Assembly: GCF_023273855.1 (NCBI RefSeq)
Contig: NZ_CP096884.1
Span: forward strand, 2,046,001-2,110,000
Origin: Seonamhaeicola sp. ML3
GTDB lineage: Bacteria > Bacteroidota > Bacteroidia > Flavobacteriales > Flavobacteriaceae
DNA: 64,000 nucleotides
Reading direction: 5' to 3'
Below are positions 2,000 to 23,106 of this stretch, one piece after another. The notes below the pieces were generated by a model. The model ran no database searches and was not told where the DNA came from. It saw only the letters and a list, made by a program, of their open reading frames with translations. Both the position numbers and the translations under genes were made by a program. Positions within the stretch are counted from its first letter, which is position 1, and each line of letters begins with the position of its first letter.

Positions 2000-2036
2000 T
2001 TTTCTTTTTTTTAATTTTGATGGTTTGTTCTATTGA

Positions 2037-2672: not shown

Positions 2673-2713
2673 TTTTGATGTTTTTTAGTTATGAAATTTT
2701 ACAGGTCATATTT

Positions 2714-5686: not shown

Positions 5687-6970
5687 TTATTTTTTTAAGG
5701 CCTCCCATTCTTCTCTGGTTGGTGGTACTTCGACATCATTCATTAAAGCATCTTTATTACCATTATAGGTTTTGGTAATTTCGTTTCCGTTGCGAGTCAA
5801 CCCTTTGAATGTGCCTTTGTCTACCTCATCCCAAAGCGCATATTTTGTTTTTCCATCTACAGTAAATAAACCAAAGTGCTTTTCGGAATTACCGGGATTA
5901 TCGCCACCTTTCCAAGGTTCGTCAAATCCTTCAAAATAGAAACAAGATAAACCTGCGTCATTGGTCCAATCTCGCATATGTTTGTAATAAAGCGCTTCTT
6001 TAAATTCATCGCAGGCTTTGGAACCATTGGTGCCGTAATGGCCAGAAGAAAAACTCGCCCATCCTGTTTCTCCAATATGAATGGGCTTATTAACCCCAAG
6101 GCTTTCCATATATTTTTTCACATTTTCAGTTTGTGCCATGGCATACTCCTTTGCTCTGAGCATTGAGATTTCAATTTTTTCCATATCCGTCTTCCCTTCC
6201 AAACCTTCTTGATCTAACCAAAATTCAGGTTGATAATGGGTGTCGTGCATAGGGTAGGTGTGTACAGATAGAAAGTCGACAGCCTTGATGAGTTTATTTA
6301 GATCCTCGACGTGATATTCTTCACCGCCACCGCCCCAAGAGGCAAAATTATCGGAACTTGTAACCCATAAATTGGGAGAAAGTTTGCCTTCCTTTTTTAA
6401 ATCTTGTAGATAGTTTACCCATTTAAGGATTACCCATGGTTCTACATAATAAGATGCTGCCCATTTAACCATAGCCTCATTACCTACGGCTATAACCTTT
6501 ACTATATCTGGATATTGATTGGCTAATGCTACGGCTTTTTCCATTTGTGGTTTGTTGTCTTCACTCTCTTCATTATGGATAGGTTCTTTGTCTGTCCAAG
6601 CATTTTTACAATCTATCCAAGCGCCAAGCATAACATACATTTCAAATTTGGGGTCTTTTTGTTTTAATTCACTTATGGCTTTTAGTAGGTTTTCTGCTTG
6701 TGGTTTGTGTACCTTATATGTTCTAACCGTACGAATCCCCATAGCATGTAATAGTAGCATATCATCTTTTAGTTCGTCTAGGGTAGGTTCAATATTGTGG
6801 TCTGGATATCTGTAGCCGCCATAAGACATGGCAAGGTATTTTGGGTTACCTAAGATATCTTTTGCCGTAAGTTCAGTTTTCTCTGTAGCACTAGATTCAA
6901 TATTTTCGTTTTTTCCTTCTTTGCAGGACCACATAACGCAGATTAAAAAAATGAATACAAACTTTTTCAT
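5687..6970 (-). CDS. GH17 beta-1,3-glucanase-like lipoprotein (427 aa)
   Basis: A GH17 glycosidase with a lipoprotein signal ending at Cys16 (CVMWSC). Acid/base Glu165 lies in VIAVGNEA and nucleophile Glu301 in IHIGETGW. It is a close paralog of the next gene upstream (6973-8193): long stretches such as EMYVMLGAWIDCKNAWTD are identical. The stop codon of that gene and this start are only two bases apart, so the pair looks like a tandem duplication that kept translational coupling. This copy is exported and the other is not. The likely role is periplasmic or surface cleavage of beta-1,3-glucan oligosaccharides; endo versus exo action cannot be told. Confidence 0.92.
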   Translation of the reverse strand: MKKFVFIFLICVMWSCKEGKNENIESSATEKTELTAKDILGNPKYLAMSYGGYRYPDHNIEPTLDELKDDMLLLHAMGIRTVRTYKVHKPQAENLLKAISELKQKDPKFEMYVMLGAWIDCKNAWTDKEPIHNEESEDNKPQMEKAVALANQYPDIVKVIAVGNEAMVKWAASYYVEPWVILKWVNYLQDLKKEGKLSPNLWVTSSDNFASWGGGGEEYHVEDLNKLIKAVDFLSVHTYPMHDTHYQPEFWLDQEGLEGKTDMEKIEISMLRAKEYAMAQTENVKKYMESLGVNKPIHIGETGWASFSSGHYGTNGSKACDEFKEALYYKHMRDWTNDAGLSCFYFEGFDEPWKGGDNPGNSEKHFGLFTVDGKTKYALWDEVDKGTFKGLTRNGNEITKTYNGNKDALMNDVEVPPTREEWEALKK

Positions 6971-6972
6971 GA

Positions 6973-8193
6973 TTAATAATTTATAGTTATTTCCTCTTTT
7001 CGAGGTGGCACGTGAACATCGATTAGCAAGTCTTTTAATTCGCCATTATAGGTTTTGGTAATAGTCTTGCCATCTCTTGTTAAGTTTTTAAAAATGCCTT
7101 GGTCTACCATATCCCAAATGGCATATTTGGCTTGGCCTTTTAGGTTGATGAGTCCAAAATGGTTCTCGGACCCTAGTTCGTTGTTTGCATCTTTCCACTG
7201 TTCATCAAACGCTTCAAAGTAAAAGCAGGAGATATTATTCTTGTTGCTCCAAGCCCTCATGAGTTGAAAGTACCTTCCTGATTTGTATTCGTCTGCAGCT
7301 TTTGATCCATCTGCACCATAATGTTCATTAGAAATGGTAGCCCAACCAGTTTCTCCAATATGTACAGGCTTATTTACACCAATACTTTTCATGTAGTTTA
7401 CAACACTGTCGTAATGATCTTTGGCAAAATTTAGAGCACGTTGCATACCAGATTCTATTTTATCGGCATCAGACCAATCATACTCGTGCTCTGGTACCAT
7501 CCAAAAAGCGGGATTGTAGTGAGAATTGTGCATAGGGTAAGTATGCATAGAAATATAATCTACCGTTCTAATTAATTCATTTAAATCTTCGGTATGATAG
7601 CTAGGGTCACCACCTCCCCAAGACGAAAAGTCGTCTGAACTGGTTATCCATAATTCTTTTGGTAATTCTCCATTCTGTTTTAATTCTTGTAAATACTTCA
7701 CCCATTTTAGTATGGTATTTGGTCGCACAAAATAACTTGTAGCCCATGTAACCATAGCTTCATTACCTACGGCTATTATTTTTACAATGTCTGGATATTG
7801 TTTCGCTAGTGCCACAGCTCTTTTGATTTCGCCTTCGTTTTGTTCGCTCTCAATGTCATGAATGGGTACCATATCCGTCCAAGCATTTTTACAATCAATC
7901 CAGGCGCCGAGCATCACGTACATTTCAAAACCAGGGATTTCTTTTTTTAATTCAGAAATAGCCCTTAGTAGGTTTGGAGCTTGTTGTAGTTGAACATTGT
8001 ATGTTCTCAATATTTTTATACCCATAGCCGACAATATTTTCATGTCTTCTTTTAGCTGTGCTATGGTTGGTTGAATATCACGAGTTTTTTCACGATAACC
8101 TCCATAGGATATTGCTAAATAGTTGGGGTTTCCCAATATATCGGCAGCAGTAATTTGCTTGTTCGGTTTCGATGTATTTTTACTTTGTGGCAT
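6973..8193 (-). CDS. GH17 beta-1,3-glucanase-like enzyme without signal peptide
   Basis: A second large GH17 enzyme and a sister of the lipoprotein at 5687-6970, with the same IIAVGNEA and HIGETGWA catalytic motifs. I place the start at the ATG at 8193 (MPQSKNTSKPNK); a TTG two codons upstream is possible but adds nothing. No hydrophobic signal exists, and only about 30 bases separate this start from the end of the phosphorylase gene, so there is no room for a hidden signal peptide. The enzyme is therefore predicted to be cytoplasmic. It lies directly after the phosphorylase gene, which suggests joint intracellular processing of imported oligosaccharides. Confidence 0.9.
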   Translation of the reverse strand: MPQSKNTSKPNKQITAADILGNPNYLAISYGGYREKTRDIQPTIAQLKEDMKILSAMGIKILRTYNVQLQQAPNLLRAISELKKEIPGFEMYVMLGAWIDCKNAWTDMVPIHDIESEQNEGEIKRAVALAKQYPDIVKIIAVGNEAMVTWATSYFVRPNTILKWVKYLQELKQNGELPKELWITSSDDFSSWGGGDPSYHTEDLNELIRTVDYISMHTYPMHNSHYNPAFWMVPEHEYDWSDADKIESGMQRALNFAKDHYDSVVNYMKSIGVNKPVHIGETGWATISNEHYGADGSKAADEYKSGRYFQLMRAWSNKNNISCFYFEAFDEQWKDANNELGSENHFGLINLKGQAKYAIWDMVDQGIFKNLTRDGKTITKTYNGELKDLLIDVHVPPRKEEITINY

Positions 8194-8225
8194 TAACAAT
8201 AAGTTGTGTTAGTATTTTATCTAGC

Positions 8226-11200
8226 TTATTTTTTTATTGAAACAACAATATGGTCTATATCACCTTTTCTTTCGAAAACTGACTGGGATGTTCCTAAATC
8301 CAGAGCACCATTATTAAAAATTAGTTTCTGATTGTTTTTTAGGTTTACTGTTACCTCTTCTTTCTCACCTAGTATATAGATTATTGGAATTTGACAATGT
8401 GTAAAAGCGAGAGAGTTACTAGGCAATTTAATATGCCTATCAGCTCCATAAATATCTTTATAGTCAAAAACCGAAGGGTTTTTAATAAATTCAGAATCTC
8501 TTAACAACCCTGGGTTAAAGGATAGGATTCCTGATTTTACAGAAACTCCCAGTTCTCCAATTCTGCTAAGTATATCTTCTTTTACTTGTCCGGTCATTCC
8601 TGGTTGTTGAGCTCCTTTAGTAGCAGGTGTATGCGAGTAAGGGTCTGTTGGGAATGCCCCATAAAGTGCTGGTGGTTTGTGGGCTCCAATTCCCGCTTGA
8701 ATTTCATAGTAATGCTCCAATAATCTTCCAATGGTTTCTTCGCTTTCCTTTTGATTAATGGCCTCAATACAATTTTCTTGAACAGCTAATAATAATTTAG
8801 AAACCATATGCCAGTAAATTGAGCCAAGTCCTTCAAAACCGAAGAAAGTTCCAGAACGTCCAGTGAATTCTTTATGGTTAAAGACTTCTTCGAAGGTGTG
8901 CAAGATTTGATTCTCCTCTTTGGATTTTAGGTTTGAATAGGTTTCAGGGAGGTTGTCTAAAGCATCTTTTAGACTATTGGCGTTATTGAAGTTTCCGTTA
9001 AAATGATACTTACCGTTGCAATCCTTTTCGATAATGAGATTGTTTCCATCTTCAACTAATTGTGATAGTAACGATGAAGCCTCAACAGCTTTAGAAGGAA
9101 TTACGTTTTTCTTTGTAAATCGAGGTAAATCCTTATCTGGATATAATATATAACTATATTGGTCATCTCTAAAAAGAGCACTCGCTTTGAGTCCGTCTAG
9201 TAGCTCTAGCGCTTCTTTCGGCGATAAATATCCTGCGCTCAATGCGGCAACCTGTCCTTCGAGCATTTCAGATAAATACTCAATGGTTATTTCTTCATTA
9301 TTACTTACAGACATAATGTTGTAGGCATGGTACATGTTGTCATGTCTTTTATTTGCCCTTATGGTATGCTCTAAATAAGTTTTCGTTATTGTAACAAACT
9401 CCAAAATATTGGAAGTTGTGATGTCTTGTTTTTCGCCAGAGAAACTGTTATCGTAAATATTTATTCTGTAATTACTGGCAGGGGAGGCTAAACCATCAAG
9501 AATTGTTTTTCTTTCTTTATTACTAATGCTTCCCTCAAGTAAGTGACTGTGTTTTATTAACGTGTCTACGGTACTGTTGAAGAATGTAGCGAGCTCTTTG
9601 GATATTTTTATATTTTCTACCTCACTTTTCTCTAAAACCTTTTCAAAAAAGTTAAAGAAACGTTGGAGGTAGCATAGCGTGACCATAGAAACACCATTTC
9701 CAACAAGGGCATTGTTTGCATCGTTCCATTCTGGTCTTTGAGTATTTAACCAAATACCACCCTCGGGAATAAAGTTGGATACTTTGGCCAATACAGTAGC
9801 TAATAATTTTTCTATTAGGTTTACATGGTATATTTGGCCGTTAGCAGCTTTTAAAAGTGCTGCGTCCGCTCCTAATGTACTACGCTCTTCATTAATTTTT
9901 GAATCAACGTCATGATTAAAGTCTATTGTGTCCTTTGAGTTTTTCAAAATATCTTCGTAAGACTTAATCGTGTAGGGTACATTGGCGTAAACGAACACAT
10001 TTTCTGTAAACAGATTTTCTAGAGTTTTGGGGTAATGATTTTCTATAAACTCTAAAAATTTAAGTAGATAGATGATTTGATGATCTCCCCAATACCCTAT
10101 GTAGGACCAAGGGTCGTCAGGTTCTATAACTTCCCAGTCAAAACCATCTTTAGTAACACGGTATGGGTTGTAGCCGTCAAATGTTGTAGCATTTAAAAAT
10201 TTATGAATCATGCTTTCTATAAACTGAGGGTAGGCATGCGCCAAAGCCTCCCAGTTTTGAAAAATATCACGCCAGTTACCCTCGTAATCTAGAATTTTAG
10301 AACCGTCTATTTCGCTAGTAGTGTTAATAGAAAACCTGTTCCAAGGTCTACTTGGGTCGCCATGTCTTCTACTAAATTTTAAAGGTAAATACTCGTAGCA
10401 TAATCGTTTAAAATCTGCATCTGTATGTGAATCTGCAAGGGTTCTTATAGTTTTTACAGTAAAAGTTTCGTTTAAGCTGTTTACTGTAGCATACTCCCTT
10501 TGGAAAACATTACTGTTGGCTTTTTCAAGATATTTCGAAAAATCATGTTTCTCTATGGTGTAATTGTCATCAAAAATGCCTCCACGCATGATATTAAAGA
10601 GAGTATTCGAAAAATGTCTAGTGTTTGTAATGGTATCAGCAGTTTTTTGTAAACCATCTGAAGATGCCGTTAACTTCACTAAATTCTCTGTTCCCAAATC
10701 AACATCAGCTTCTAGTTCATGAATTAATTGCATATTCTCTATTATATTCTTTTCCAATTCATGTACTTGAGAGACATTTTGATTGACATTAGCAACAAAA
10801 CCCCAAGAGGTTTCGCTGTTTGCTTCTATTTGAATTGATTTGTTTATGAAATAAGCTCCTTTTTCTGCCTTTATATCTTCTTCGGGAGACACAGATTCGC
10901 CTGATCTAAAGTTATTTAACTGTATTGAAGAAAGGAGGTAAGTCGGGTTTTCGATTCCATAAGACCAAACAGTATTAGCTTTTAACGCTTCACTAGGTTC
11001 TGCTTTATCAACTATTATGGCACTTAAGGTTAAAAGGCCAAGTCCAGATTCAGGAAGAAGTTCTGTCCTTTTGTAGGCGTCTACGAGGTTACTACGTGTG
11101 TTTTGAAGATTAGATTCAACACCCCATGGTAGTAAATTTTGTAGACCGTCTAAAACATTCAGATTAATTGGGTTTAAGTTGTGGTTTATTAATTTGGAAT

Positions 11201-11681
11201 GTTTTACAAAACCAAATTTATTTGAGCTCTTCCATGAATATCTAAAAGTTAACCCCAAGTCTAGGTTTATCTCTTCGAAAACAATTTTGTTTCCGTAAAT
11301 ATTCTTGTACAGATTTTGTTCGATATTGTAAATTCCAATTTGTCTTATACTGAAAGGTTCCCAAATTTTAAGTTGATTTTCGTGTATAACTTGGAAAATG
11401 GATTTGCTTCCAGTTATATCGGCAGACTCTGTAATCTTATCATCTGTATAGTATGGAAAGAGTGCGTATTCTGAATTTTTTCTTCCCGCAGATAGGCCAC
11501 CGTTGCTAGAAATGAACATCCAATGGTTAGAGTCTGAAACAATACTCATAAAGAAGGGACGCATTTTGTCACTATTCGATATTTTATAGTATGTTTCGTT
11601 TTCGAATTGAATCAGTTCTCCTTTGGTGGTTTTCATGGTGTTTGAAACTTTAAGCGCGTCTTTAAAGATTGCAGTTGACAT
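8226..11681 (-). CDS. GH149-like beta-1,3-glucan phosphorylase (1151 aa)
   Basis: A very large cytoplasmic enzyme with no signal peptide, built like the inverting disaccharide and oligosaccharide phosphorylases of the GH94-related group: an N-terminal beta-sandwich, a helical linker, an (alpha/alpha)6 barrel and a C-terminal beta domain. The segment TQRPEWNDANNALVGNG at about residues 646-662 carries the probable catalytic acid Asp654 in a WND motif. NPYRVTKDGFDWEV and DPWSYIGYWGDHQIIY are further barrel motifs that I associate with family GH149. GH149 enzymes cleave beta-1,3-glucan oligosaccharides with phosphate to give glucose 1-phosphate, and their length of about 1100 to 1200 residues matches. 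The neighbouring GH16, GH17 and GH30 genes support this. GH161 or another GH94 relative is the alternative. Confidence 0.82.
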   Translation of the reverse strand: MSTAIFKDALKVSNTMKTTKGELIQFENETYYKISNSDKMRPFFMSIVSDSNHWMFISSNGGLSAGRKNSEYALFPYYTDDKITESADITGSKSIFQVIHENQLKIWEPFSIRQIGIYNIEQNLYKNIYGNKIVFEEINLDLGLTFRYSWKSSNKFGFVKHSKLINHNLNPINLNVLDGLQNLLPWGVESNLQNTRSNLVDAYKRTELLPESGLGLLTLSAIIVDKAEPSEALKANTVWSYGIENPTYLLSSIQLNNFRSGESVSPEEDIKAEKGAYFINKSIQIEANSETSWGFVANVNQNVSQVHELEKNIIENMQLIHELEADVDLGTENLVKLTASSDGLQKTADTITNTRHFSNTLFNIMRGGIFDDNYTIEKHDFSKYLEKANSNVFQREYATVNSLNETFTVKTIRTLADSHTDADFKRLCYEYLPLKFSRRHGDPSRPWNRFSINTTSEIDGSKILDYEGNWRDIFQNWEALAHAYPQFIESMIHKFLNATTFDGYNPYRVTKDGFDWEVIEPDDPWSYIGYWGDHQIIYLLKFLEFIENHYPKTLENLFTENVFVYANVPYTIKSYEDILKNSKDTIDFNHDVDSKINEERSTLGADAALLKAANGQIYHVNLIEKLLATVLAKVSNFIPEGGIWLNTQRPEWNDANNALVGNGVSMVTLCYLQRFFNFFEKVLEKSEVENIKISKELATFFNSTVDTLIKHSHLLEGSISNKERKTILDGLASPASNYRINIYDNSFSGEKQDITTSNILEFVTITKTYLEHTIRANKRHDNMYHAYNIMSVSNNEEITIEYLSEMLEGQVAALSAGYLSPKEALELLDGLKASALFRDDQYSYILYPDKDLPRFTKKNVIPSKAVEASSLLSQLVEDGNNLIIEKDCNGKYHFNGNFNNANSLKDALDNLPETYSNLKSKEENQILHTFEEVFNHKEFTGRSGTFFGFEGLGSIYWHMVSKLLLAVQENCIEAINQKESEETIGRLLEHYYEIQAGIGAHKPPALYGAFPTDPYSHTPATKGAQQPGMTGQVKEDILSRIGELGVSVKSGILSFNPGLLRDSEFIKNPSVFDYKDIYGADRHIKLPSNSLAFTHCQIPIIYILGEKEEVTVNLKNNQKLIFNNGALDLGTSQSVFERKGDIDHIVVSIKK

Positions 11682-11748: not shown

Positions 11749-14517
11749 TTATTCTAATACTATATCGTCGAAATAGTAAGTTCCGCTAGAAGTAATGGCG
11801 CTATCGGCTTGATCATTATCAGGTTTTATAACCAATCTGAAATATGACGAAGGTGCAGGCATGGCCGTAAAACTAAATGTTACTTCTGTCCATGTGTTCG
11901 CCTCGGAAACCGTAGCAAAAGCTCCTGGTGGATTCCCTACGTTAGGGTCATCCTGAGCGACCTCAAAACGGAAGGTAGTATTCGGTTTACTAGAATAAAT
12001 TTTTATTTTAAACGTTCTGTTTGTTAAATCAGGGAAATTAGAGGCAAAGTTGTTTTGGATACCCGCAAAAAATTCTGCACCTGCATTCTTTTCAACTTTC
12101 AGAACATAATCTGATGTATTGATTCCACTTTTGTCAGGGTTTGCAACTAATTCAGAAGAAATCGTTCCGAAATTTTGGCTTGCTAAGAAAGTTTCGCATC
12201 CTTCAAAGTTAACGGGGAGTGCCGATGCTGCAACAAGTTCGCCCGAACAACCGCCACCAGAACTTCCTCCAGTGCCACCACCAGAACCTCCGTCTCCTTC
12301 AACTTTGGTGATGTCGTCTATGTAAAGAGAACCAGTGTTTGGCTTAGTTCCATCTTGATTTCCTACGTCTGGACGAATCAATATTCGGTTTACTCCAGCT
12401 GGAATGTTTTCTAATGTGAAAGTGAGTTCTACCCACTCATTGGCAGTAGTAATTGTTTGTACATTACCAACGGGTGCATTTGTTCCATCTACTTCTACTT
12501 GAAATAAAACATTGGTTGGAGCTACAGTGGAATAGAATTTTGCTTTGTAAACAGTGGTTGCTTGGTCTAAACCATCTCCGAAAACAAATCCTATGCCACC
12601 CCACCATTGGTTGCCATTGTTGTATGATGCTTCGTAGACATTAGCGCTAGTATTGATTCCGCCAGAAACTGGGTTGGCGATTAACGCCCCTCCGGTTTCG
12701 AATTCACCAACAGTAATTCCTGTTAGGTTATTTTCGAAATCTAGAACTACAGATTCTGTAGCACTACTTCCTCCTGATCCAGAACCGTATAGCATTAAAT
12801 CATCAAAATAATATGTATCTGTATTATTCGCATTAAGGTCAAAGAAGATTACTATTTTATTGAATTTACCACTATCTGCAGCATCAAAAGGGAACATGAG
12901 TTCTTCCCAACCATTAGTTACTGTTGTCGTCGTGAATTTCTCTGTATTATTACTTGGCATGCCAATCTCTTCCAGTTTAATTCTAACTTCTGTATTAGCT
13001 CTAGCAGACCATACTTTGATTTTTAATCCGGTGTTGGCGTTAAAGTCTAATTTTGCATCTAAATCTATCTGGTTATTGTCCCAAGGATTGTTGCCTAATT
13101 TGGTGATTTTTCCAACTTTACACGATTTATTTACATCGTTATCAAAGTCTGGGTTGTCAATCCATTCAAAATCGGCTCCATCTTCAATAATGCTAGATGT
13201 AGGGTCTGTCATGAATGTTAAATTGAAATCTGCTCCTCCCAAGGATTGCATAGCTTCGGCTTCGCAAGGGTCTGCAACTTCTCCGGCAACTTGTTCAATA
13301 TCATCTATATAAAACGTTCCTGCTGCTGTTCCTGGGCCATCAACAAACAAAACCATATCATTATATGATGCATCTGAAGCTAGGGTGAATGTCAATTCTT
13401 CCCATCCAGAACCTGTGTGGTTTACATCGGCTTCAACAGGGTCTGCAGTACCATCTTCGAACTTCAATTTAATTGGTAATGCTTGATCTGAGTAAAGTTT
13501 GAATTTTATGCCTTTGTCTGTTGTGAAATCAACCGGTGTGTCTAAATTGAAAAACGCGTTTTCCCAATTAGCGCCTACATTTACTATTTTTCCCACTTTA
13601 CTGGCCTCAGAATTAATACCTGATAATTCTGGATTATCAACAACTTCAAAAGATACATTGCCAACAATTTTAGCGGCATAATCAATACCGTTACAATCAA
13701 AATCTATAGGTACTTCTAAATTAGTCTGTAAACAAGGAATGTCTGTTGTATCTATTTGTGATATTCCATCTATATAAAATTTACCAGAAGTAGTTCCTGG
13801 GCCATCGACGAACATAGTAAATCTAGAATAACTTGAAGCAGAATCGAAGGTGAAGTATATTTCTTCCCAACCAGTACCACCGTGACTTGCTGTAGTTTCT
13901 ACAGGTGCGCCAGTACCTTCTTCTAATTTTAGTAATACATCAATGGGTGTATTAGACCAAAAAAGTACTTTTATCGTTTTCTTTTCTGTTAAATTGATAG
14001 GTGCTCCTAAATCAAAAAAGAACCCTTCAAAAGCAGCACCACTATTCGTGATTTCCCCAACTTTTGATGCGCTAGTATTTGCTCCAGATGGATCTGGGTT
14101 ATCTACTACGGCAAAAGCTGCTCCATTGAATGTAGAAGCCTCATATTTAGTGTTTTCACCATCAAAAGAAATTGGTAGTGTGGCCACCTCTGGTATTAAA
14201 ATAGTGATTTCGTCTTCAAAAGTATCTGAGGCCCCAGCTATATTATTTGCAACTAGACTTACGGTATATGTGCCGTTTTCATAAACTTTAACGGGGTCTA
14301 TTAGTGTGGAGTTACTACCATCTCCAAATGCCCATTTATAGGTATTGGCATTTTCTGATATATTTATAAATGTAACTGTTCCCGTATCTATGTCTATAGT
14401 GTAGGTAAAACCTGCTAAAACTCTAGGTAGAACAGTCTCATCGTCTTCACATCCTAAAAAGGATAAGGTCAATATCAATATTGATATATATTTAAATGTT
14501 TTCATTAATTGTTTCAT
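11749..14517 (-). CDS. Multi-module surface glycan-binding lipoprotein with PKD domain (922 aa)
   Basis: A lipoprotein (Cys23 after ILTLSFLG) whose acidic tail EDDE fits the surface-export signal described for Bacteroidetes lipoproteins. A PKD domain covers about residues 31-107 (KWAFGDGS). Five related beta-sandwich modules of about 130-150 residues follow; each starts near a WxDNPxxSG-like segment (VVDNPDPSG, VVDNPELSG, ANPDKSG), has a GWEE-like strand, and ends in YIDDI or YFDDI. A Gly/Ser linker precedes the last module. No catalytic motif is seen. It is most likely a surface scaffold that binds laminarin and plays the part of SusE/SusF-like proteins. It is followed downstream by a strong hairpin and the phosphorylase gene. 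Confidence 0.85.
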   Translation of the reverse strand: MKQLMKTFKYISILILTLSFLGCEDDETVLPRVLAGFTYTIDIDTGTVTFINISENANTYKWAFGDGSNSTLIDPVKVYENGTYTVSLVANNIAGASDTFEDEITILIPEVATLPISFDGENTKYEASTFNGAAFAVVDNPDPSGANTSASKVGEITNSGAAFEGFFFDLGAPINLTEKKTIKVLFWSNTPIDVLLKLEEGTGAPVETTASHGGTGWEEIYFTFDSASSYSRFTMFVDGPGTTSGKFYIDGISQIDTTDIPCLQTNLEVPIDFDCNGIDYAAKIVGNVSFEVVDNPELSGINSEASKVGKIVNVGANWENAFFNLDTPVDFTTDKGIKFKLYSDQALPIKLKFEDGTADPVEADVNHTGSGWEELTFTLASDASYNDMVLFVDGPGTAAGTFYIDDIEQVAGEVADPCEAEAMQSLGGADFNLTFMTDPTSSIIEDGADFEWIDNPDFDNDVNKSCKVGKITKLGNNPWDNNQIDLDAKLDFNANTGLKIKVWSARANTEVRIKLEEIGMPSNNTEKFTTTTVTNGWEELMFPFDAADSGKFNKIVIFFDLNANNTDTYYFDDLMLYGSGSGGSSATESVVLDFENNLTGITVGEFETGGALIANPVSGGINTSANVYEASYNNGNQWWGGIGFVFGDGLDQATTVYKAKFYSTVAPTNVLFQVEVDGTNAPVGNVQTITTANEWVELTFTLENIPAGVNRILIRPDVGNQDGTKPNTGSLYIDDITKVEGDGGSGGGTGGSSGGGCSGELVAASALPVNFEGCETFLASQNFGTISSELVANPDKSGINTSDYVLKVEKNAGAEFFAGIQNNFASNFPDLTNRTFKIKIYSSKPNTTFRFEVAQDDPNVGNPPGAFATVSEANTWTEVTFSFTAMPAPSSYFRLVIKPDNDQADSAITSSGTYYFDDIVLE

Positions 14518-14536: not shown

Positions 14537-15403
14537 TTAGTTACTTCTATTGTATACACGCACATAATCTACCAACATGGTTTGTGGGAATACGGTTTCA
14601 GCATTGGGTGAACCAGGTAATTCTCCACCAACAGCTACGTTAAGTATGATGTAGAATGGACCATTATTGAATACCCATTCCCCTTGGTCATCGGTTTCTT
14701 CAGAAACATCCTCTGGCGTTATTTGGTTATAAAGTACATCGTCTACATAAAAATTGATATAATCTGGTCCCCATTCTATACCGAATACGTGAAATCCGGT
14801 ATCAAACCTGTCATTTTCCAATTCATAAGATTTGCTTATGGATTCCCCTGCTGAATATCCCGGCCCGTGAACGGTTCCGAATATTTTAGAGGGTTCGTCT
14901 CCTAAATACTCCATGATATCTATTTCTCCTATTTGAGGCCAAATTTGTGTACCATTGGCATCATCTCCCAAGAGCCAAAATGCTGGCCAAATACCTTTGC
15001 CATAGGGTAATCTAATACGAGCCTCGTAACGTCCATAAGTTTGTTCAAACTTACCTTTAGTCAGTAGTCTTGCTGAGGTATAAGCAGCTCCTTCAAACTG
15101 TTCTTGTTTGGCTGTAATAATGAGTACACCATTTTGTACTGTTACATTTTCGGTACGGTCGGTGTAATATTGTAGTTCATTATTTCCCCAGCCATTGGTG
15201 CCTGTACCAATATCATAACCCCATATTTCAGAATTAGGAGCACCATCAGTATTAAATTCATCTGCCATCACCAAATTTGTAAAACTGGCGACGGTCTGTG
15301 TGTCGTCTGTTTCACAGCTGGATAGCATAAAAAGGAAAGCCATCACGAAAGTGGTGAAAAGCACCTGTTTTGTTATTGCTTTGTATATGTGTTTTATATT
15401 CAT
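14537..15403 (-). CDS. GH16 laminarinase lipoprotein (288 aa)
   Basis: An endo-beta-1,3-glucanase of family GH16 (laminarinase type). The lipoprotein signal ends at Cys30 (FMLSSC) and is followed by ETDD, an acidic tail that fits surface display. The catalytic signature GEIDIMEYLG gives nucleophile Glu160, Asp162 and acid/base Glu165. The upstream segment GIWPAFWLLG and the C-terminal LVDYVRVY are typical of the beta-jelly-roll fold. The length corresponds to a bare catalytic domain with no added carbohydrate-binding module. It lies between the two multi-domain binding proteins with gaps of 19 and 32 bases. Predicted role: first cuts in extracellular laminarin. Confidence 0.95.
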   Translation of the reverse strand: MNIKHIYKAITKQVLFTTFVMAFLFMLSSCETDDTQTVASFTNLVMADEFNTDGAPNSEIWGYDIGTGTNGWGNNELQYYTDRTENVTVQNGVLIITAKQEQFEGAAYTSARLLTKGKFEQTYGRYEARIRLPYGKGIWPAFWLLGDDANGTQIWPQIGEIDIMEYLGDEPSKIFGTVHGPGYSAGESISKSYELENDRFDTGFHVFGIEWGPDYINFYVDDVLYNQITPEDVSEETDDQGEWVFNNGPFYIILNVAVGGELPGSPNAETVFPQTMLVDYVRVYNRSN

Positions 15404-15435: not shown

Positions 15436-16884
15436 CTACTCTGAATAGAAGTAAATGTTATCTAATATGAAGTCAGGTCCTCCGGCTAATATTATAGCTC
15501 CTAGGTTGTTCTTTTGGGAGGTAAGATCTCCACTTAAAGGAATATCAATAGACGACCAAGAACCCGGTGTTAGTCCGTCTGCAGTAAATCTAAAGTCTTT
15601 ATCGTCTCCATCAGGTGCACCTGTAAAGACATTAGTTTCTATTTCACCATTACCGCCCACGTCTCTTATTTGGAATTCTACACTGGTATCTGCAGATTGT
15701 GAGTAAATATCAACGTGCATGTGGCTTAATGTCGAAGCATTTACTGTATTGTTAAAAATAATTCCCGTGAAATTGTTATTAGAGTAGATTAACACATTAT
15801 TACCATTTAAATCAGCAATTGAAGTCTGAGTCGTCGAACCTCCAAAACCAGGATTGAAATTAATAGCCGTTTCTGATGTGTAGGCATCACTAAATACGGA
15901 TTTAACAGCAGCAGCTGGTCGGTTTGGTGTTGGGGAAGCTGGTAAATCACCACTAGATGTCACCTCAAAAGAACCATTAGCTTCAACACCGGCCAAACTT
16001 GCTGTTACCTTTGCCGTTCCTTGATTAAGAATGGTAATAATGCCTTTTTCATCTACCGAGGCAACACTAGGGTTTGATGAGGTAAATGAAAAATACGATG
16101 GAGTTGTAAATACGGTTACATTGCTCCCATTAACATTTGATGTTTGAGCTAATCCAACGCCTAAGTCAACGTTGCTACCGTTAAATGACTGCTGCACAAT
16201 ATCCTGTCCAAATAAGATACTAGGTTGTTGTTGTGCTATGGTTCCTAATTTTTCAAACTTGAGCTCATCAATCCAGAACGTCCAAGCTATCTCATTGCCG
16301 TTAGGCCCATCTGCAAAAGGATCAAACCCCCCTGCGGAAAACAAGAACATCCCAGTTTCTTGAATTAATTTTGAAGCATCTGGTATTGGAATTATATATT
16401 TCTTCCATCCAGATGTCATTTGAACAACCGTTGTAACTGCATAAGAGGGGTCACTTTCTGGACGGTCAAAATCAGTTCCAAATCCAACTTCTACAGTTCC
16501 AGATGTAGTTCCTAATGCCCAAAATGTAAGTGCGTCATATCCAGTAAGGTTTCTTCCTGCTCCACGGTCTTCAAAAATCCCACCTATAAAGTTTCCGTCT
16601 GGGTCGTTAGAGGCAGGTACATCAATTCTAATAGATGATCTTCCTTCGTAAGCCACATTGGTGTCTACACCAAAACCCTCTGTATTAGCACCTGACTTAG
16701 GATCAAAAGATCTGAAAAATTGATCTGTAAGTCCAACGGGGTCATCTATGTAGATTTCTGCTGTATTTGGGAAAGTAGCAAATACGGCTTCATCTGAAAG
16801 TTCTCTTTCGCAACTAATGAGAAGCGTAAACATGCATCCTAAAAAGAATGTCAATTTTGTATATGTAAGTTTTATATTTTTCAT
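15436..16884 (-). CDS. Surface glycan-binding lipoprotein with Big_2-like domain (482 aa)
   Basis: A lipoprotein (Cys25 in TLLISC) with an acidic tail ERELSDE. The N-terminal beta-sandwich, about residues 50-215, resembles carbohydrate-binding modules and ends in FWIDELKFEK. A bacterial Ig-like group 2 domain lies at about residues 235-310 (SSNPSVASVDEKGIITILNQ). A second beta-sandwich of about 165 residues ends with DFILDNIYFYSE. The modules recall those of the 922-residue protein, and no hydrolase motif is visible. It is encoded between the barrel-fusion gene and GH16 with 12- and 32-base gaps. I read it as a second laminarin-binding surface protein of the SusE/F or SGBP type. Confidence 0.8.
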   Translation of the reverse strand: MKNIKLTYTKLTFFLGCMFTLLISCERELSDEAVFATFPNTAEIYIDDPVGLTDQFFRSFDPKSGANTEGFGVDTNVAYEGRSSIRIDVPASNDPDGNFIGGIFEDRGAGRNLTGYDALTFWALGTTSGTVEVGFGTDFDRPESDPSYAVTTVVQMTSGWKKYIIPIPDASKLIQETGMFLFSAGGFDPFADGPNGNEIAWTFWIDELKFEKLGTIAQQQPSILFGQDIVQQSFNGSNVDLGVGLAQTSNVNGSNVTVFTTPSYFSFTSSNPSVASVDEKGIITILNQGTAKVTASLAGVEANGSFEVTSSGDLPASPTPNRPAAAVKSVFSDAYTSETAINFNPGFGGSTTQTSIADLNGNNVLIYSNNNFTGIIFNNTVNASTLSHMHVDIYSQSADTSVEFQIRDVGGNGEIETNVFTGAPDGDDKDFRFTADGLTPGSWSSIDIPLSGDLTSQKNNLGAIILAGGPDFILDNIYFYSE

Positions 16885-16896
16885 CGTAGTCTTATT

Positions 16897-19800
16897 TTAT
16901 TTGCCAATATTGATGTGTACATATGTTCTGATTTCCCATTCGTTTCCATTATCAAAACCAACTGGACTTAGTGTTGGTTCTGCAGGAAATGTATTTGGTG
17001 GTACTGCTGTTGGCGAATATCTTGGCGAGAATTGATCTAAAGATCTCCATATGCCTCTAATACCTATTTTAGTATCTGGAAGAATAAACCAATCTGGTTT
17101 ACCGATTGATGTCGAAATGTCAACCATATTTTGTACAGGGAAAGTTAAGTTGAAATCTCTGTGGTAATCGAAAGGTCCCCAATCGTTGATTTTAACTTGA
17201 TATTCAAACTTCCATTTGTTGTAAATCATTTTGATATCTGCTCCAAAACGTTCGATAGTTCTATCACTGTCTCCATTAGCTTGAGCGTTACCTCCATAGA
17301 AATTACCAATGATTCCCAGGTTTGGACTTACTTTTGAAACCACTCTTGAGCTTATTTCCCATAAGTCTCTAGCTGGTGCTGAATTAGGGAAAGCAAAAAA
17401 TGTACGATTTGCTAGGAACCCAATATGTGCATCTTGTGCCGTTGGTAGATGTCTGTAAACAAAACCTAGGTTAAATGCGAACTTGGCATCTTCGGCTCTG
17501 TCATTATCCCATTGATAGAACCAGGAACCTGGAGTAGGGTCGTAGGTTAATAATAATTCTCCTGCGGTGGTTTCTCTGTTGCCTCTTACAGCAAAAGGAT
17601 CATCGATAAAGTTTCTTAATCTTCCAGGATCACTTACGTCATTGGGAATGGGCGCAACTAAAGGCTTTTGCCACAAAAAGTTAGGAGCTATCTGCCAATC
17701 GCCAGTTGTAAATGTGAATCCTGATAAGATGTTGGTTTGGTTACCGCTACCTGTATCCTTTAATTTCCAACCAGTGAATGTTCTGGTGGCATCGGCGCCA
17801 CCATTAGCTACTAACCCCATGTATGCAGCTTGAGCATAGAAATTAAAAGCACCACCTTCGTATGTAAATTTAGCTTTACCACCCCAATTGTCATCAGAGT
17901 TTATTTTGTCTTCATAAACTACATAATTTCCTGGGCCGCCGGTTACATCTTGAAAAGAACTACCGTTAAGAGGGTTTCCTCCCCAGATACCACCTAATGA
18001 GATACCAAATTTTCCAAATTCACGCTCTAGTACTATTGTAGCTCTTTCGGTTGGCCATGGAGGAATAACACCACTTCGTACTTGGTTAGCATCTAAAAAT
18101 CGCCGTCCGTTAGCGTCAAATTCTAGACTTGTATCTAAATCTCTGTGGTATATACCGGTAATATCCCAATGGTGAAGATTTGTTCTGTACTTCATCAAAA
18201 ATGTTGGGTTTGCTCCCCACCACAATTGAGGTCCAAAAGCGGCTTTAAGACCTTTAAGAGAACCTTTGCCGTTAACTTCCATACCTAAAATTTCACCATT
18301 GTATATATCTAGATTAGGACCATAGTTTGCCTCAGGATAGAGTCCGAAAAAATCGCCTTCGTATCCCCAGTGGTAATGCCCAGTTCTATAAAAACCTTTT
18401 ATGTCTGCGATTTTCGTGTCCCATTCGAATTCAGCATTATATACTCGAACTCTATTGTTATCTGTAATAACAACTTCTTCTCCTTCGGAATTTTGTACAG
18501 TTATTGGTCTTCCTACATTCTCGTAGAAAATCTCATTGATAGGGTTTTGTGCAACATTCCCTAGTATATTAAAGTTAACTTCTGCTCGCATTTTGGAAGT
18601 TGGTTTTCCTTCAACACCAACGTAGTAAGATTGCATATGGTCGAAACCTAGTTGGTTAGGAAAGGTTTCTTCGTCAGGATTTGCTGTTTCAGGAGTTGTT
18701 AGTAGAGAACCACCTGTATTAAAAGTTGTGAATTCAGCTCTTAATCTACTCAGTTTTATTTTTGCCCCATCCATGGCATCAAGGGCTGCTTTGTCTCCTC
18801 TTGCTCTTAAAACAGCATCAGTAATATTTATGTTTTTAAAGTAATTTTGAATAAACTCTAAATTAACCCCTTCTCCGTAGGGATTGATAGCATGCGCATC
18901 TTTTAGGGTGTAGTAAGATGCTCTAGGGTAAAGGTCATATAGTCCTCGGCTATCAGTTGGTCCTTTGGCACATATACCGAACCATTCTTCATTCATGTTA
19001 TTGGAACCATTTTTAGTATCGTGGTAATATCCACCATTGCTCCAAGATGCACCAGTCTCATGAGAATCGGCATTTTCTCTATCGTCAAAGCCTAGTTTCC
19101 ACCAACCATCACTGAACTGAAATGTAAATCCTCCAATAGAATTTCCTACTTTTCCTAGTCCAGCAGCATTTTCGTAAATCTCTTTCCAATTTAGTAAGTT
19201 GTAGTGAGCCTGCCAATATTGGTCTTCTTTATCTGCTAGAGCGTTGTAAGCATCTGCGCCAAACTCAGTAAACATAACTGGGATTCCTAATTTGTCTTTT
19301 ACCACTTGAAAGAAATCGCCAAAAGACTCACCTCTATAGGTGTTTGCCCCATAGACATCAATATCTTTGCATTCTTCCGCAATTATATCAATGAATAGCA
19401 CATCACCGTTACATATAGCAACTGGGTGATTGGGGTCCATTGCTTTCATTTTTTTTGCGACTTCGTTCATTAGGCGATACATTGGTCTTCCTCTTTTTTC
19501 ACCTACTGCTCTTTTTTGTTCTTCGCCTTCAGGGAAATCTTCAGTTTCAGCACCTTGCCAGAATAAACCATAGTTATTTTCGTTACCCATCATGTACATT
19601 AGTATACCCGGAACATCCTTGTATTGTTTAACTAGGTCTATCATTGCGGAGACTAAATGTTCTTGTGTTTTTTGGTCTGAGTAGATTGTAACTGGTGTCC
19701 AAACACCATCTAGGGTTAGGCCATATCTTCCAAAAGAATGATTTAATAAGGTGTAAATACCATACTTTTCATAGATATATCTAACCCACTTAGGAGGAAC

Positions 19801-20085
19801 TCCCACATATTGCCTGATTACATTGACGTTCATATTCTTGAGAAGTCCCATTTCTGTATCTAATCCTGCCTTTATTACATCGTCAGATTGTTTGTAGAAA
19901 TTGGCGTTAGTAACGTCTGTACCTATGGGAACGTAATCCCAGTTCATACCGTTGATCATGAAGTCTTTGCCATTCACAACTAATTTAGAACCTTCTTCAT
20001 TGTGAATGATTTCAACTTTATCTGACTGAGCAAATAAAATTGATGTCATAAAGAAAAAGGTCACTACTAGAAATTTGTTTTTCAT
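16897..20085 (-). CDS. Clan GH-A glycosidase fused to predicted outer-membrane beta-barrel (1062 aa)
   Basis: A two-part secreted protein. Residues 1-20 are a signal peptide (FFFMTSILFAQ). Residues about 22-420 form a GH2-type (clan GH-A) TIM barrel: MINGMNWDYVPIG near the start, probable acid/base Glu169 in YMMGNENN, and nucleophile Glu274 in VMFTEFGAD. From about residue 440 to the end the sequence changes to alternating, aromatic-rich amphipathic strands with short turns and longer Gly/Asn/Asp loops, as in outer-membrane porins. The last strand reads NEWEIRTYVHINIGK. It is the first gene of the glucan operon, where susC would normally be. The fusion suggests an enzyme anchored on or in an outer-membrane channel. 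The glycosidase specificity is unknown; a beta-glucosidase-like or beta-glucan role is inferred. Confidence 0.78.
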   Translation of the reverse strand: MKNKFLVVTFFFMTSILFAQSDKVEIIHNEEGSKLVVNGKDFMINGMNWDYVPIGTDVTNANFYKQSDDVIKAGLDTEMGLLKNMNVNVIRQYVGVPPKWVRYIYEKYGIYTLLNHSFGRYGLTLDGVWTPVTIYSDQKTQEHLVSAMIDLVKQYKDVPGILMYMMGNENNYGLFWQGAETEDFPEGEEQKRAVGEKRGRPMYRLMNEVAKKMKAMDPNHPVAICNGDVLFIDIIAEECKDIDVYGANTYRGESFGDFFQVVKDKLGIPVMFTEFGADAYNALADKEDQYWQAHYNLLNWKEIYENAAGLGKVGNSIGGFTFQFSDGWWKLGFDDRENADSHETGASWSNGGYYHDTKNGSNNMNEEWFGICAKGPTDSRGLYDLYPRASYYTLKDAHAINPYGEGVNLEFIQNYFKNINITDAVLRARGDKAALDAMDGAKIKLSRLRAEFTTFNTGGSLLTTPETANPDEETFPNQLGFDHMQSYYVGVEGKPTSKMRAEVNFNILGNVAQNPINEIFYENVGRPITVQNSEGEEVVITDNNRVRVYNAEFEWDTKIADIKGFYRTGHYHWGYEGDFFGLYPEANYGPNLDIYNGEILGMEVNGKGSLKGLKAAFGPQLWWGANPTFLMKYRTNLHHWDITGIYHRDLDTSLEFDANGRRFLDANQVRSGVIPPWPTERATIVLEREFGKFGISLGGIWGGNPLNGSSFQDVTGGPGNYVVYEDKINSDDNWGGKAKFTYEGGAFNFYAQAAYMGLVANGGADATRTFTGWKLKDTGSGNQTNILSGFTFTTGDWQIAPNFLWQKPLVAPIPNDVSDPGRLRNFIDDPFAVRGNRETTAGELLLTYDPTPGSWFYQWDNDRAEDAKFAFNLGFVYRHLPTAQDAHIGFLANRTFFAFPNSAPARDLWEISSRVVSKVSPNLGIIGNFYGGNAQANGDSDRTIERFGADIKMIYNKWKFEYQVKINDWGPFDYHRDFNLTFPVQNMVDISTSIGKPDWFILPDTKIGIRGIWRSLDQFSPRYSPTAVPPNTFPAEPTLSPVGFDNGNEWEIRTYVHINIGK

Positions 20086-20313: not shown

Positions 20314-23106
20314 TTATATTTCCAAAATATAGTTTGTTAGGCTTTCTTCGTGGGGTAAATTCATTTTTTTTCTTAGCCTGTAGCGTTTAACTTCTACGCT
20401 TCTTGGTGAAATATTCAATAACGGAGCAATTTCCTTAGAAGATAGATTTAATCTTAAATAAGCACATAATCTAAGATCGTTTGGAGTTAGTTCTGGGTGT
20501 ATTTGTTTTACTTTTTTCAGAAAGTCTTTGTCAGCATTATTAAACGCTTCTTCAAATACTTTCCAATCATCTCTGTTGTTAAGATTCTGGTCAATTATCT
20601 TTACAATTCTTTTGACTTTATCGTTGTTTTCTATGTTGAGTAGTTCTAGTTTGATGCTATTTAAGAAGTCATTTTTCTTAATTAAGCTCATAGTTGATAT
20701 GCCCAGTTCTCTGTTCTTACCCTCTATATCTTGTCTCAACTTCTCGTTTCTAAAGCGCATTAGCTGTTGTTTATTCTCAAGTTCCTTAAGCTCTATTTCT
20801 CTCTCAGATCTTAGAATTATACGTTCGCGTTGTTTCCGGTAATACCTCTTATAGATGTTGTGGATTATTATTGAGATGAGTAATAAAGCCAAAACGTATA
20901 ACGCTATGGATAAATTACTCAAGTACCAAGGTCGCGCAATTGAGAATTTAAATACACCAATATTTTCAGTAAGGGTACTACCGTTTTTTGCTCTTACTTT
21001 GAATTGGTAAGATCCGTATGGTAGGTTTTTAAAAGAGGCTTTTGGGTTTAAGGACCAAGAACTCCAGTTTTTGTAAAAACCCTCTAATTTATATTGATAG
21101 TAGGTCTCTTGATATTTATTAAACTCAGGAACACTGTAGTGAAACTCTAGATTGTTCAGTTTGTTTTTAAAATTACCAATCTCATTTTTATTATGTTCTA
21201 AGCTAACTTTATTTTCTTGGTCTGTGATTTTTACTTCATCAATGGAGATGGTGTGCGCTGTTTCTTTTACTTTATCTAAATCTAATATGGTATAACCATC
21301 AGAAGTACCTATTAAAAAACTTTTGTTAAATAAGTGCGATATGTTCTCAGATCCTGTTAGGCCACGGGGAAGCTTTTCAGAAAAGGAAATTGAATTTAGC
21401 TTTGGTTTTGCCGATAAGCCACTAGAGGTAATGTAGTTAAGTTTGTTTTTAGAAAAGCCCCATAAAATATTGTTTTCTTGGTCTGCAATTAATTTTCCGG
21501 AAGTGAACTCTTGTTTCTTAAAGATTTGACTGAATAACGAGTCTTTTACAAAGCTATTTTGTTTTTTGTAGAATTGGTATACACCGTCTTTATTAGTGTA
21601 TAAAATCTTGTTGTTGTATTTAACCAAACTCGAATAAATACCTTTTTTAACGGATAAGTCCTGGTTAATCTCTATGATTTCTTTAAAGTCCTTATCCGTT
21701 TTTAATTTAAATACTCCCTTATACTCGTGATTTACAAATATGTATCCATTATATACTTCCAAGAACTTACTGGAAATATTAAAACCTTTAATTTTATTTT
21801 TTAATTCCCATGTGTCTCCAATGCGTTCAATAATACTTAGGCCGTTGTAATTGCCTTGCAGCAAAAGATTCTGTTTGTTTGGTAATTCTACAATGTTCCA
21901 TGTGCCATCTACATCAATCCTCTTTTTTATTTTGCCATTTTCAATAATAAAGGTTCCTAAATTATGTCCACAAAAAAGAGATCCTTTTAAATTACGAAGA
22001 GACCACACGGGACCTTCAGTTCCTTCTACGAATTTGAATTCATTAGAATCCGTTTTTTTGTAAAATAGCCCCTGGTTTGTTCCTAGGTACAAATAATTGC
22101 CTTGGATTGCTGATGCATATGTTGTTCCTATTTTTCCGGCTTGATCATGGAAAAACTGGAATGGTGATTCGAGATTTATGCAATTTATTCCATTTTCGAG
22201 AGCTAGCCATATGTTATTTTCGGCGTCCTCAAAAATATCATGTATTGAGTTGCTCAATAACCCTTTTGAGGAGTTGATAGAATAATCAACCGCTCCTTGT
22301 TTATTTATGTGATAAATACCGTTAGACCGAGTTCCTATTAAATAGCCTTTAGATGTTTTTTCTCCTCTGTAAGAGCTTAACATACTTAAGTCTTTGTTTG
22401 CAGGAATATCCCATTTTGTTAAATTTTGGTCTGGAGTTAATTGATAAATCCCGTTTTCCTCAGTTAGTAAAAGTGTATTTTTCCCCTCTTTAAAAATATT
22501 AACCAGATAGTTGTTTTTGATAATATCATGGTCACTTACCAACTGTTGTTTTCCTTGTTCGATTTTGTAAAGGCCTTGTTTAACCTTTTGGAAATAGACT
22601 GTCTTGTCTATTTTGAACATTTTATAAATTCTATTTTCGGAATCTAGCTTAGTATGTGTTTTATTTTCACTATTGTAGATGTAAATGCGTTTTAATGACT
22701 GGAAAAGTATATAATTGTCAATATTAATTATGTTCCAGAATTCTTCATCCTCTAAAAAATTAATATCAAGTTCTTTTGACAAAGAATAATAGGTGAGTTT
22801 TCCATTATCGGTTTTTTTCCAAAAGCCAAATTCTTGATAAGCGCCAGAATAAATTAGGTCGTCTATAACTTTTAAGGACCTCATTTTTCCACTAGGTGAG
22901 TTATAAAGTGTCCACTTTTCACCATTGAATTCTAAGAGTCCAACATTATTGGCTACATAAATGTGTTTATCTGAAGTTTGGTCGATGCACCAATTTTGAT
23001 TATCGGCTCCATAAATTTCTGGAGAATAGGATTGAATAGGTGGTAATTCTTGAGCAATCGAAAAAAAACTTACTAGCGCGTAAATAGTAAATATTGAATG
23101 CCTCAT
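20314..23106 (-). CDS. Membrane-spanning propeller/Y_Y_Y sensor with LuxR-type DNA-binding domain (930 aa)
   Basis: The likely transcription activator of the glucan locus. A signal peptide (residues 1-18) leads into a large periplasmic sensor made of repeated propeller blades (for example NGIYHINKQG, DIFEDAENNIWLALENG) and then a Y_Y_Y-type Ig domain (YQYKLEGFYKNWSSW; YGSYQFKVRAKNG). A single transmembrane helix lies at about 730-749, then a coiled coil of about 70 residues. The last 60 residues are a helix-turn-helix of the LuxR type (LTPNDLRLCAYLRLNLSSKEIAPLLNIS, quoted as the region 873-900). There is no histidine kinase or receiver domain, so it differs from hybrid two-component regulators and resembles SusR-like one-piece sensors. 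It lies just upstream of the operon on the same strand. Confidence 0.88.
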   Translation of the reverse strand: MRHSIFTIYALVSFFSIAQELPPIQSYSPEIYGADNQNWCIDQTSDKHIYVANNVGLLEFNGEKWTLYNSPSGKMRSLKVIDDLIYSGAYQEFGFWKKTDNGKLTYYSLSKELDINFLEDEEFWNIINIDNYILFQSLKRIYIYNSENKTHTKLDSENRIYKMFKIDKTVYFQKVKQGLYKIEQGKQQLVSDHDIIKNNYLVNIFKEGKNTLLLTEENGIYQLTPDQNLTKWDIPANKDLSMLSSYRGEKTSKGYLIGTRSNGIYHINKQGAVDYSINSSKGLLSNSIHDIFEDAENNIWLALENGINCINLESPFQFFHDQAGKIGTTYASAIQGNYLYLGTNQGLFYKKTDSNEFKFVEGTEGPVWSLRNLKGSLFCGHNLGTFIIENGKIKKRIDVDGTWNIVELPNKQNLLLQGNYNGLSIIERIGDTWELKNKIKGFNISSKFLEVYNGYIFVNHEYKGVFKLKTDKDFKEIIEINQDLSVKKGIYSSLVKYNNKILYTNKDGVYQFYKKQNSFVKDSLFSQIFKKQEFTSGKLIADQENNILWGFSKNKLNYITSSGLSAKPKLNSISFSEKLPRGLTGSENISHLFNKSFLIGTSDGYTILDLDKVKETAHTISIDEVKITDQENKVSLEHNKNEIGNFKNKLNNLEFHYSVPEFNKYQETYYQYKLEGFYKNWSSWSLNPKASFKNLPYGSYQFKVRAKNGSTLTENIGVFKFSIARPWYLSNLSIALYVLALLLISIIIHNIYKRYYRKQRERIILRSEREIELKELENKQQLMRFRNEKLRQDIEGKNRELGISTMSLIKKNDFLNSIKLELLNIENNDKVKRIVKIIDQNLNNRDDWKVFEEAFNNADKDFLKKVKQIHPELTPNDLRLCAYLRLNLSSKEIAPLLNISPRSVEVKRYRLRKKMNLPHEESLTNYILEI

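Follow-up and report, generated by a model that had tools for sequence, protein, structure and literature searches.

In Bacteroidota, the uptake of laminarin is generally ascribed to TonB-driven SusC/SusD pairs. Very large amounts of marine carbon flow through this glucan (PMC11345257, excerpt), and selfish uptake in Formosa has been attributed to SusC/SusD (PMC6246565). Here we describe a protein of a different layout, encoded in a 64,000-nucleotide stretch of Seonamhaeicola sp. ML3 DNA (contig NZ_CP096884.1, positions 2,046,001 to 2,110,000; hereafter the window). It joins a glycosidase-type TIM barrel to an outer-membrane-type beta-barrel and heads a beta-1,3-glucan operon. We favor the explanation, to which we assign a probability of roughly 0.57, that this fusion is a plug-less outer-membrane channel for beta-1,3-glucan (laminarin) oligosaccharides that carries its own periplasmic glycosidase.

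The idea of fusing a transporter to an enzyme has precedent in the inner membrane. In Formosa sp. Hel1_33_131, FORMB_24740 (FbGH17B) is a fusion of a carrier of the major facilitator superfamily (MFS) and a glycoside hydrolase (GH) of family 17, for which the authors proposed a coupling of hydrolysis and uptake (PMC6246565). The window's protein would likewise combine a transporter with a laminarin-cleaving enzyme in one chain, in the corresponding kind of laminarin cluster. However, FbGH17B is a helical MFS protein with its GH17 domain at the C-terminus, whereas here the barrel is of outer-membrane type and the TIM domain, from another family, is N-terminal. In the window (1088-4144), the MFS and short GH17 genes that are reported to be fused in Formosa (PMC6246565) are separate, with a 211-residue protein between them.

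Other described systems share one half of the architecture. GH158 endo-laminarinases (BuGH158, 6pal; GH158(Pro), 9oro) are the nearest solved relatives of the TIM domain and have the same catalytic pair, but in these enzymes an Ig-like domain follows the TIM barrel (PMC7157763, excerpt), where the fusion has a membrane-type barrel. SusC-type TonB-dependent transporters are, as the C-terminal half appears to be, large outer-membrane glycan barrels in Bacteroidota clusters, and many of the top listed Foldseek matches are TonB-dependent; unlike SusC, the fusion has no plug and no SusC or TonB-receptor profile match, and it carries an enzyme at its N-terminus instead. PgaA/PgaB also pairs an outer-membrane porin, with a periplasmic N-terminal domain, and a glycoside hydrolase, but it serves export, the hydrolase is a separate protein, and the porin has a TPR scaffold (general background and PMC9384988, excerpt). 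A review states that fusions of outer-membrane pores to further domains are rare, and its section on such fusions, in the excerpt available, names no hydrolase (PMC4827864).

The gene itself may have been catalogued under another name. A 2026 paper places a GH2 beta-glycosidase in Muricauda laminarin clusters with GH16, GH149, GH17, GH30 and MFS genes (PMC13188888, excerpt), and SGIU01000001.1, a contig listed there, is the contig of one of our loci (L062), with a full-length homolog. The Muricauda enzyme is probably the same protein as the fusion, yet the excerpt describes it as GH2 only and mentions no barrel. GH2 has also been noted in laminarin clusters of Croceitalea and Croceivirga relatives in a paper on Maribacter (PMC11345257, excerpt). 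Our literature search, which did not extend to preprints and covered subscription papers sparsely, found no description of the barrel in such a fusion. A conserved cluster protein called only GH2 may thus offer a second way across the outer membrane, with the enzyme and the pore built as a single molecule. If so, there would be another means of powering transport across this membrane, the annotation of laminarin clusters would change, and the cutting and uptake of an algal sugar may be physically coupled.

Layout and domains of the fusion

The gene and its parts are as follows (window coordinates).
16897-20085, minus: focal gene, glycosidase/outer-membrane barrel fusion of 1062 residues, first in the operon, single copy in its genome
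20029-20085, minus: signal peptide, residues 1-19, probably of signal peptidase I type, judged by eye
18862-20022, minus: TIM-barrel glycosidase domain, residues ~22-408 (profile, AlphaFold2, Foldseek, alignment)
19579-19581 and 19264-19266, minus: codons of Glu169 and Glu274, respectively, in the TIM domain
18760-18861, minus: helical linker, residues 409-442 (AlphaFold2 model, helix 409-440)
16900-18759, minus: outer-membrane-type beta-barrel, residues 443-1062, ~24 predicted strands (models, Foldseek, strand statistics)

A single open frame runs from the ATG at 20085 to the stop at 16897, while the plus strand across the same positions contains many stops. A chance frame or pseudogene was rejected because 16 of 98 genomes carry the gene at full length. 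One of them is the window's own genome, and the 15 further copies are 63-86% identical to the focal one. Gln20, directly after the predicted signal peptide, is invariant (81/81 rows), and a lipobox-like motif occurs within the first 70 residues in only 3 of 81 rows. A promoter scan upstream gave one plus-strand site against 1.6 expected and was uninformative.

Two AlphaFold2 models, one of the whole protein and one of residues 424-1062, were examined. They place the TIM domain at ~24-397 and a helix at 409-440, and both agree on 24 long strands over residues 443-1059 (617 residues). None of the 34 linker residues is invariant across the family alignment. The Pfam scan gave Glyco_hydro_2_C (PF02836) at residues 32-292 (27.1 bits against a cut-off of 21, E 2.8e-6) and no second family above cut-off; the remaining listed match was a beta-sandwich family at 940-987, below threshold (14.8 bits against 27). 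The NCBIfam scan gave two GH2 models only, both far under cut-off. The initial annotation had proposed a glycosidase-type domain fused to an outer-membrane-type barrel as the first gene of its locus, and models, structure searches and sequence statistics bear out this architecture.

The TIM domain carries a catalytic-type pair of glutamates. Glu169 (in GNENN) and Glu274 (in TEFG), the pair named initially, align with the glutamate pair found in GH158 and GH2 structures, and in GH158(Pro) the corresponding residues are the glutamates of GNE and TEFG. In BuGH158, of clan GH-A, the acid/base is E137 and the nucleophile E220 (PMC7157763, excerpt). The two glutamates, and Asn168 just before Glu169, do not vary in any of the 128 aligned rows, which reduce to 119 once those at least 97% identical are removed. 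A TIM-domain profile was built from 16 sequences, of which eight are relatives that stand alone, with ~340 residues and 25-28% identity. Against the PDB its best match was a GH158 endo-laminarinase (E 3e-16), followed by a GH2 beta-glucuronidase (8.6e-14), and in a Foldseek search with the full model GH158 came first (E 6.9e-13) and filled the first six rows, BuGH158 among them. The eight stand-alone relatives (L018-L025) come from related genomes and some have lipobox-like N-termini; two of three tested touch the GH72 profile below cut-off.

In the definition of GH2, sugar-binding and Ig-like domains precede the TIM barrel. The Pfam scan found no such accessory domains in the fusion, where only residues 1-31 precede the TIM match. 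The "GH2-type" label given initially is thus right in that a GH2 TIM-barrel profile matches above cut-off together with the catalytic glutamates, but GH158 appears slightly nearer and the GH2 accessory domains were not found. The Ig-like domain of GH158 enzymes was not seen after the TIM barrel either. As judged from sequence comparison, the domain appears to be of clan GH-A type, with GH158 nearest and then GH2, and because the accessory domains of both families were not seen we leave its family open. Its kinship and the operon context together make a beta-glucan a more likely substrate than a galactoside or a glucuronide.

Strand statistics of the C-terminal half support a membrane barrel. 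Hydropathy alternation over the 24 strands was 2.62, a value reached by 0 of 5000 within-strand shuffles (1.50 +/- 0.23). The TIM strands of the protein, which are shorter, scored 1.02 where shuffling gave a mean of 2.12. In family averages, alternation was nearly nil in strands 1 and 19 (0.1 and 0.5). Loop length alternates by side, with means of 23.8 and 4.8 residues, a difference reached in 2 of 100000 permutations. Both tests use strands taken from the models, so they support the models without being independent of them. In a Foldseek search with the barrel-only model, the best 50 of 919 matches were all outer-membrane barrels; the matches listed include TonB-dependent transporters, FimD, the Mtr complex, LptD, MOMP and OccK/Opd channels. 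Plain beta-sandwich or carbohydrate-binding modules were rejected as the C-terminal half on the strand statistics and these matches, and the tandem beta-sandwich modules that the initial annotation had set against its own proposal did not appear.

A few shorter strands (for example 710-717 and 720-727) were set aside as loop hairpins; counting that hairpin gives 26 strands and leaves the parity unchanged. The initial estimate of 14-18 strands was too low. As modelled, the protein combines a Sec-type signal peptide and an even number of amphipathic strands with long predicted outer loops and short predicted periplasmic turns, which lie on the same side as both ends of the barrel domain. Neither a plug domain nor a SusC or other TonB-receptor profile was listed for the fusion in Pfam and NCBIfam at E up to 1, and no autotransporter profile matched in the Pfam scan. 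Predicted outer loops 5, 7 and 21 (569-597, 621-627 and 969-981) are aromatic and 95-99% conserved, compared with 75% in the strands, which suggests a conserved substrate path. The longest predicted periplasmic turn, residues 849-869 (17479-17541, minus), is also aromatic, is 90% conserved, and in the model could be a docking site of the TIM domain.

Conservation and gene neighborhood

A contig search found at least 589 relatives, of which the best 80 were kept as a locus set; all 80 have frames of 1047-1110 residues, one reaching its contig end. A wider collection of 129 loci comprises overlapping sets, with 97 found using the whole protein as query. Both domains lie in one frame in 127 of these. 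The only TIM-only frame (L017) ends at its contig end, and the only barrel match without a TIM domain (L128) is a weak match to an unrelated TonB receptor; with that explained, no barrel-only family was found among the 129 loci. Fusion of the two domains is obligate, and their pairwise identities correlate (r = 0.70, 7021 pairs). With the barrel alone as query, matches came from 35 of the 395 genomes searched in the phylum, and some of these genomes lie in other classes than the window's. Stops interrupt four of the 35 matches: one TAA each in G505 and G573, over nearly the full match, two in G676 (a partial match) and one in G578 (a fragment). A search of the class matched 18 of 395 genomes, one match being an unrelated TonB receptor.

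The fusion heads a beta-1,3-glucan operon of 11 genes, itself and ten followers separated by ten gaps of 2-67 bases. Signal peptides and lipoprotein placement were judged by eye from the sequence. The followers, and the regulator upstream, are listed here.
15436-16884, minus: lipoprotein of 482 residues with bacterial Ig-like domain, sub-threshold CBM11 match and CERELSD, surface-type by our reading
14537-15403, minus: GH16 lipoprotein (CETDDTQ), probable surface endo-beta-1,3-glucanase (profile)
11749-14517, minus: PKD-domain lipoprotein (CEDDETV), probable surface glycan binder (profile)
8226-11681, minus: GH149 1,3-beta-D-glucan phosphorylase, no signal peptide seen (NF058639, 1791.9 bits against 1150; 6hq6, E 0)
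6973-8199, minus: GH17 protein, no signal peptide seen in this frame (27.9 bits, cut-off 28.2)
5687-6970, minus: GH17 lipoprotein (CKEGKNE), probably periplasmic (profile)
4183-5670, minus: GH30 lipoprotein, probably a beta-1,6-glucosidase, as judged from the analogous Formosa FbGH30 (PMC6246565)
2714-4144, minus: MFS sugar transporter (PF13347, E 2.9e-63)
2037-2672, minus: protein of 211 residues between MFS and GH17, no match in the Pfam scan
1088-1999, minus: short GH17 protein, no signal peptide seen (profile)
20314-23106, minus: Y_Y_Y/LuxR-type regulator, upstream, 228 bases from the focal gene (profile)

The operon resembles the laminarin-induced clusters of Formosa (PMC6246565) and the variant B locus of North Sea isolates, which has GH30 and at least two GH17 beside GH16 (PMC6298971, excerpt). 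The window's operon has this enzyme set and lacks the SusC/SusD pair of variant B. Its GH16 gene is the only PF00722 match in the genome. For the middle GH17 no signal peptide could be seen, while the next gene, 2 bases on, encodes a GH17 lipoprotein; the middle enzyme may be cytoplasmic, or its true start may lie elsewhere.

Of the neighboring genes compared, the one for the 482-residue lipoprotein is most closely tied to the fusion. In 78 of the 80 loci it is the next recognized gene, and the two remaining loci stop at a contig end. In 20 distant loci, whose upstream flanks span ~7-8 kb and one of which is cut by a contig end, its homolog was found in 19 and GH16 in 18 (once upstream of the fusion). 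A homolog of the regulator is present in 69 of the 80 loci but in 5 of the distant 20. By analogy with SusD and SusC, the lipoprotein may be the surface partner of the channel. The three lipoproteins encoded next to the fusion have acidic residues after the cysteine, whereas those of GH17 and GH30 type are less acidic. This acidic stretch resembles SDDFE, the surface-export signal derived for Flavobacterium johnsoniae lipoproteins (PMC5080379, excerpt), and by that analogy we read the three as surface proteins and the GH17 and GH30 lipoproteins as periplasmic.

A proposed channel with its own glycosidase

In the explanation we favor, the fusion would form a ~24-stranded barrel in the outer membrane. 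Because a barrel with an even strand number begins and ends on one side of the membrane, here the periplasm, the TIM domain would be periplasmic, hanging under the pore. Surface lipoproteins (GH16, PKD and Ig/CBM-like) would bind and cut laminarin outside the cell, and fragments would enter the barrel guided by the conserved aromatic-rich loops. The TIM domain would cut them as they emerge, which would maintain the inward gradient and prevent fragments from leaving. With the enzyme at the inner mouth, oligosaccharide concentration there would stay low and more would be pulled in, so that TonB would not be needed. In this the fusion would do at the outer membrane what was suggested for the Formosa MFS-GH17 protein at the inner one. 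The pathway would be completed by GH17 and GH30 in the periplasm, the MFS carrier and, in the cytoplasm, the GH149 phosphorylase. What the computation shows is two domains in a single frame, the fold class predicted for each, invariant glutamates of catalytic type, the operon around the gene and its wide conservation. From this anatomy we infer membrane insertion, topology, substrate, activity, partner compartments and the coupling of cleavage to passage that the initial annotation had suggested.

Several observations weigh against this explanation. The AlphaFold2 models are of medium confidence (pLDDT 74.8 and 71.7, pTM 0.53 and 0.70), and query TM-scores to known barrels are 0.16-0.40 with large root-mean-square deviations (0.23-0.40 for the barrel-only model). 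With values like these, neither barrel closure nor strand number is certain, though on the models a closed pore is likely. A profile search with the barrel against PDB sequences gave no match, and predicted outer loops 1, 3, 9, 11 and 23 are only 52-68% conserved. The genome holds nine SusC and ten SusD above cut-off outside the operon, which might carry laminarin. Finally, a SusC/SusD pair lies upstream on the same strand in 25 of the 80 loci, so the fusion need not be the sole route there.

The initial annotation also held that the fusion stands where SusC usually stands. For the window this is so, since no SusC or SusD profile matched within the operon; the 25 loci with a pair limit the statement. 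The upstream flank is a full 10 kb in 69 loci, of which 42 have neither gene and 24 have both, one has a SusD only, at its edge, and two have a SusC on the other strand. The pair is found in just one of the 20 distant loci. Of the 25 laminarin-locus SusCs, 13 were compared and are 43-78% identical to each other, while the nine SusCs of the window's genome reach 31-34% identity to them. These counts and identities indicate that the fusion often occurs without neighboring SusC/SusD and that an obvious laminarin SusC is missing from this genome, although a distant SusC could do the uptake. Elsewhere in the window, a 717-residue frame (51135-53288, plus) matches positions 1-100 of the SusC model at its start (55.8 bits against a cut-off of 368) and is not a full SusC.

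The same data permit a broader proposal, namely that the fusion channel, its lipoprotein and GH16 form a stand-alone core that replaces SusC/SusD in a widespread, TonB-independent glycan uptake, with the enzyme at the periplasmic mouth destroying each arriving oligosaccharide and so driving transport. We put this forward tentatively, as the less probable side of the question. A rival proposal is that the fusion is an accessory to SusC/SusD, a secondary channel or product valve, with the main uptake through a pair nearby or elsewhere. The loci that have a pair upstream and the attribution of uptake in Formosa (PMC6246565) speak for it, but the flanks empty of both genes, the near absence of the pair from distant loci and the low identity of the genome's own SusCs to laminarin-locus SusCs make it unlikely.

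Surface display is somewhat more doubtful. The barrel would act like an autotransporter unit that passes the TIM domain outside, leaving helix 409-440 in the pore, and laminarin would be cut at the surface. Autotransporters run in the order passenger, helix, barrel, and the classical barrel is C-terminal with 12 strands. The fusion has this order, with its helix directly before strand 1. However, ~24 strands are predicted over 617 residues, a mere export pore would not need the near-invariance of outer loops 5, 7 and 21, and the operon already has a surface-looking GH16 lipoprotein.

The TIM domain might instead be a binding or gating domain under the pore of the favored channel and not a working enzyme. 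It is placed where a plug or scaffold would be, and we know of no activity of it, but the invariance of both catalytic-type glutamates and of Asn168 renders this quite improbable. Least credible is a protein outside the outer membrane whose C-terminal 620 residues are soluble beta-sandwich modules: the moderate model confidence, the missing sequence match to a solved barrel and the one sub-threshold Pfam match at 940-987 would allow it, but the hydropathy alternation, the loop lengths and the outer-membrane barrels that fill the top of the Foldseek matches all oppose it.

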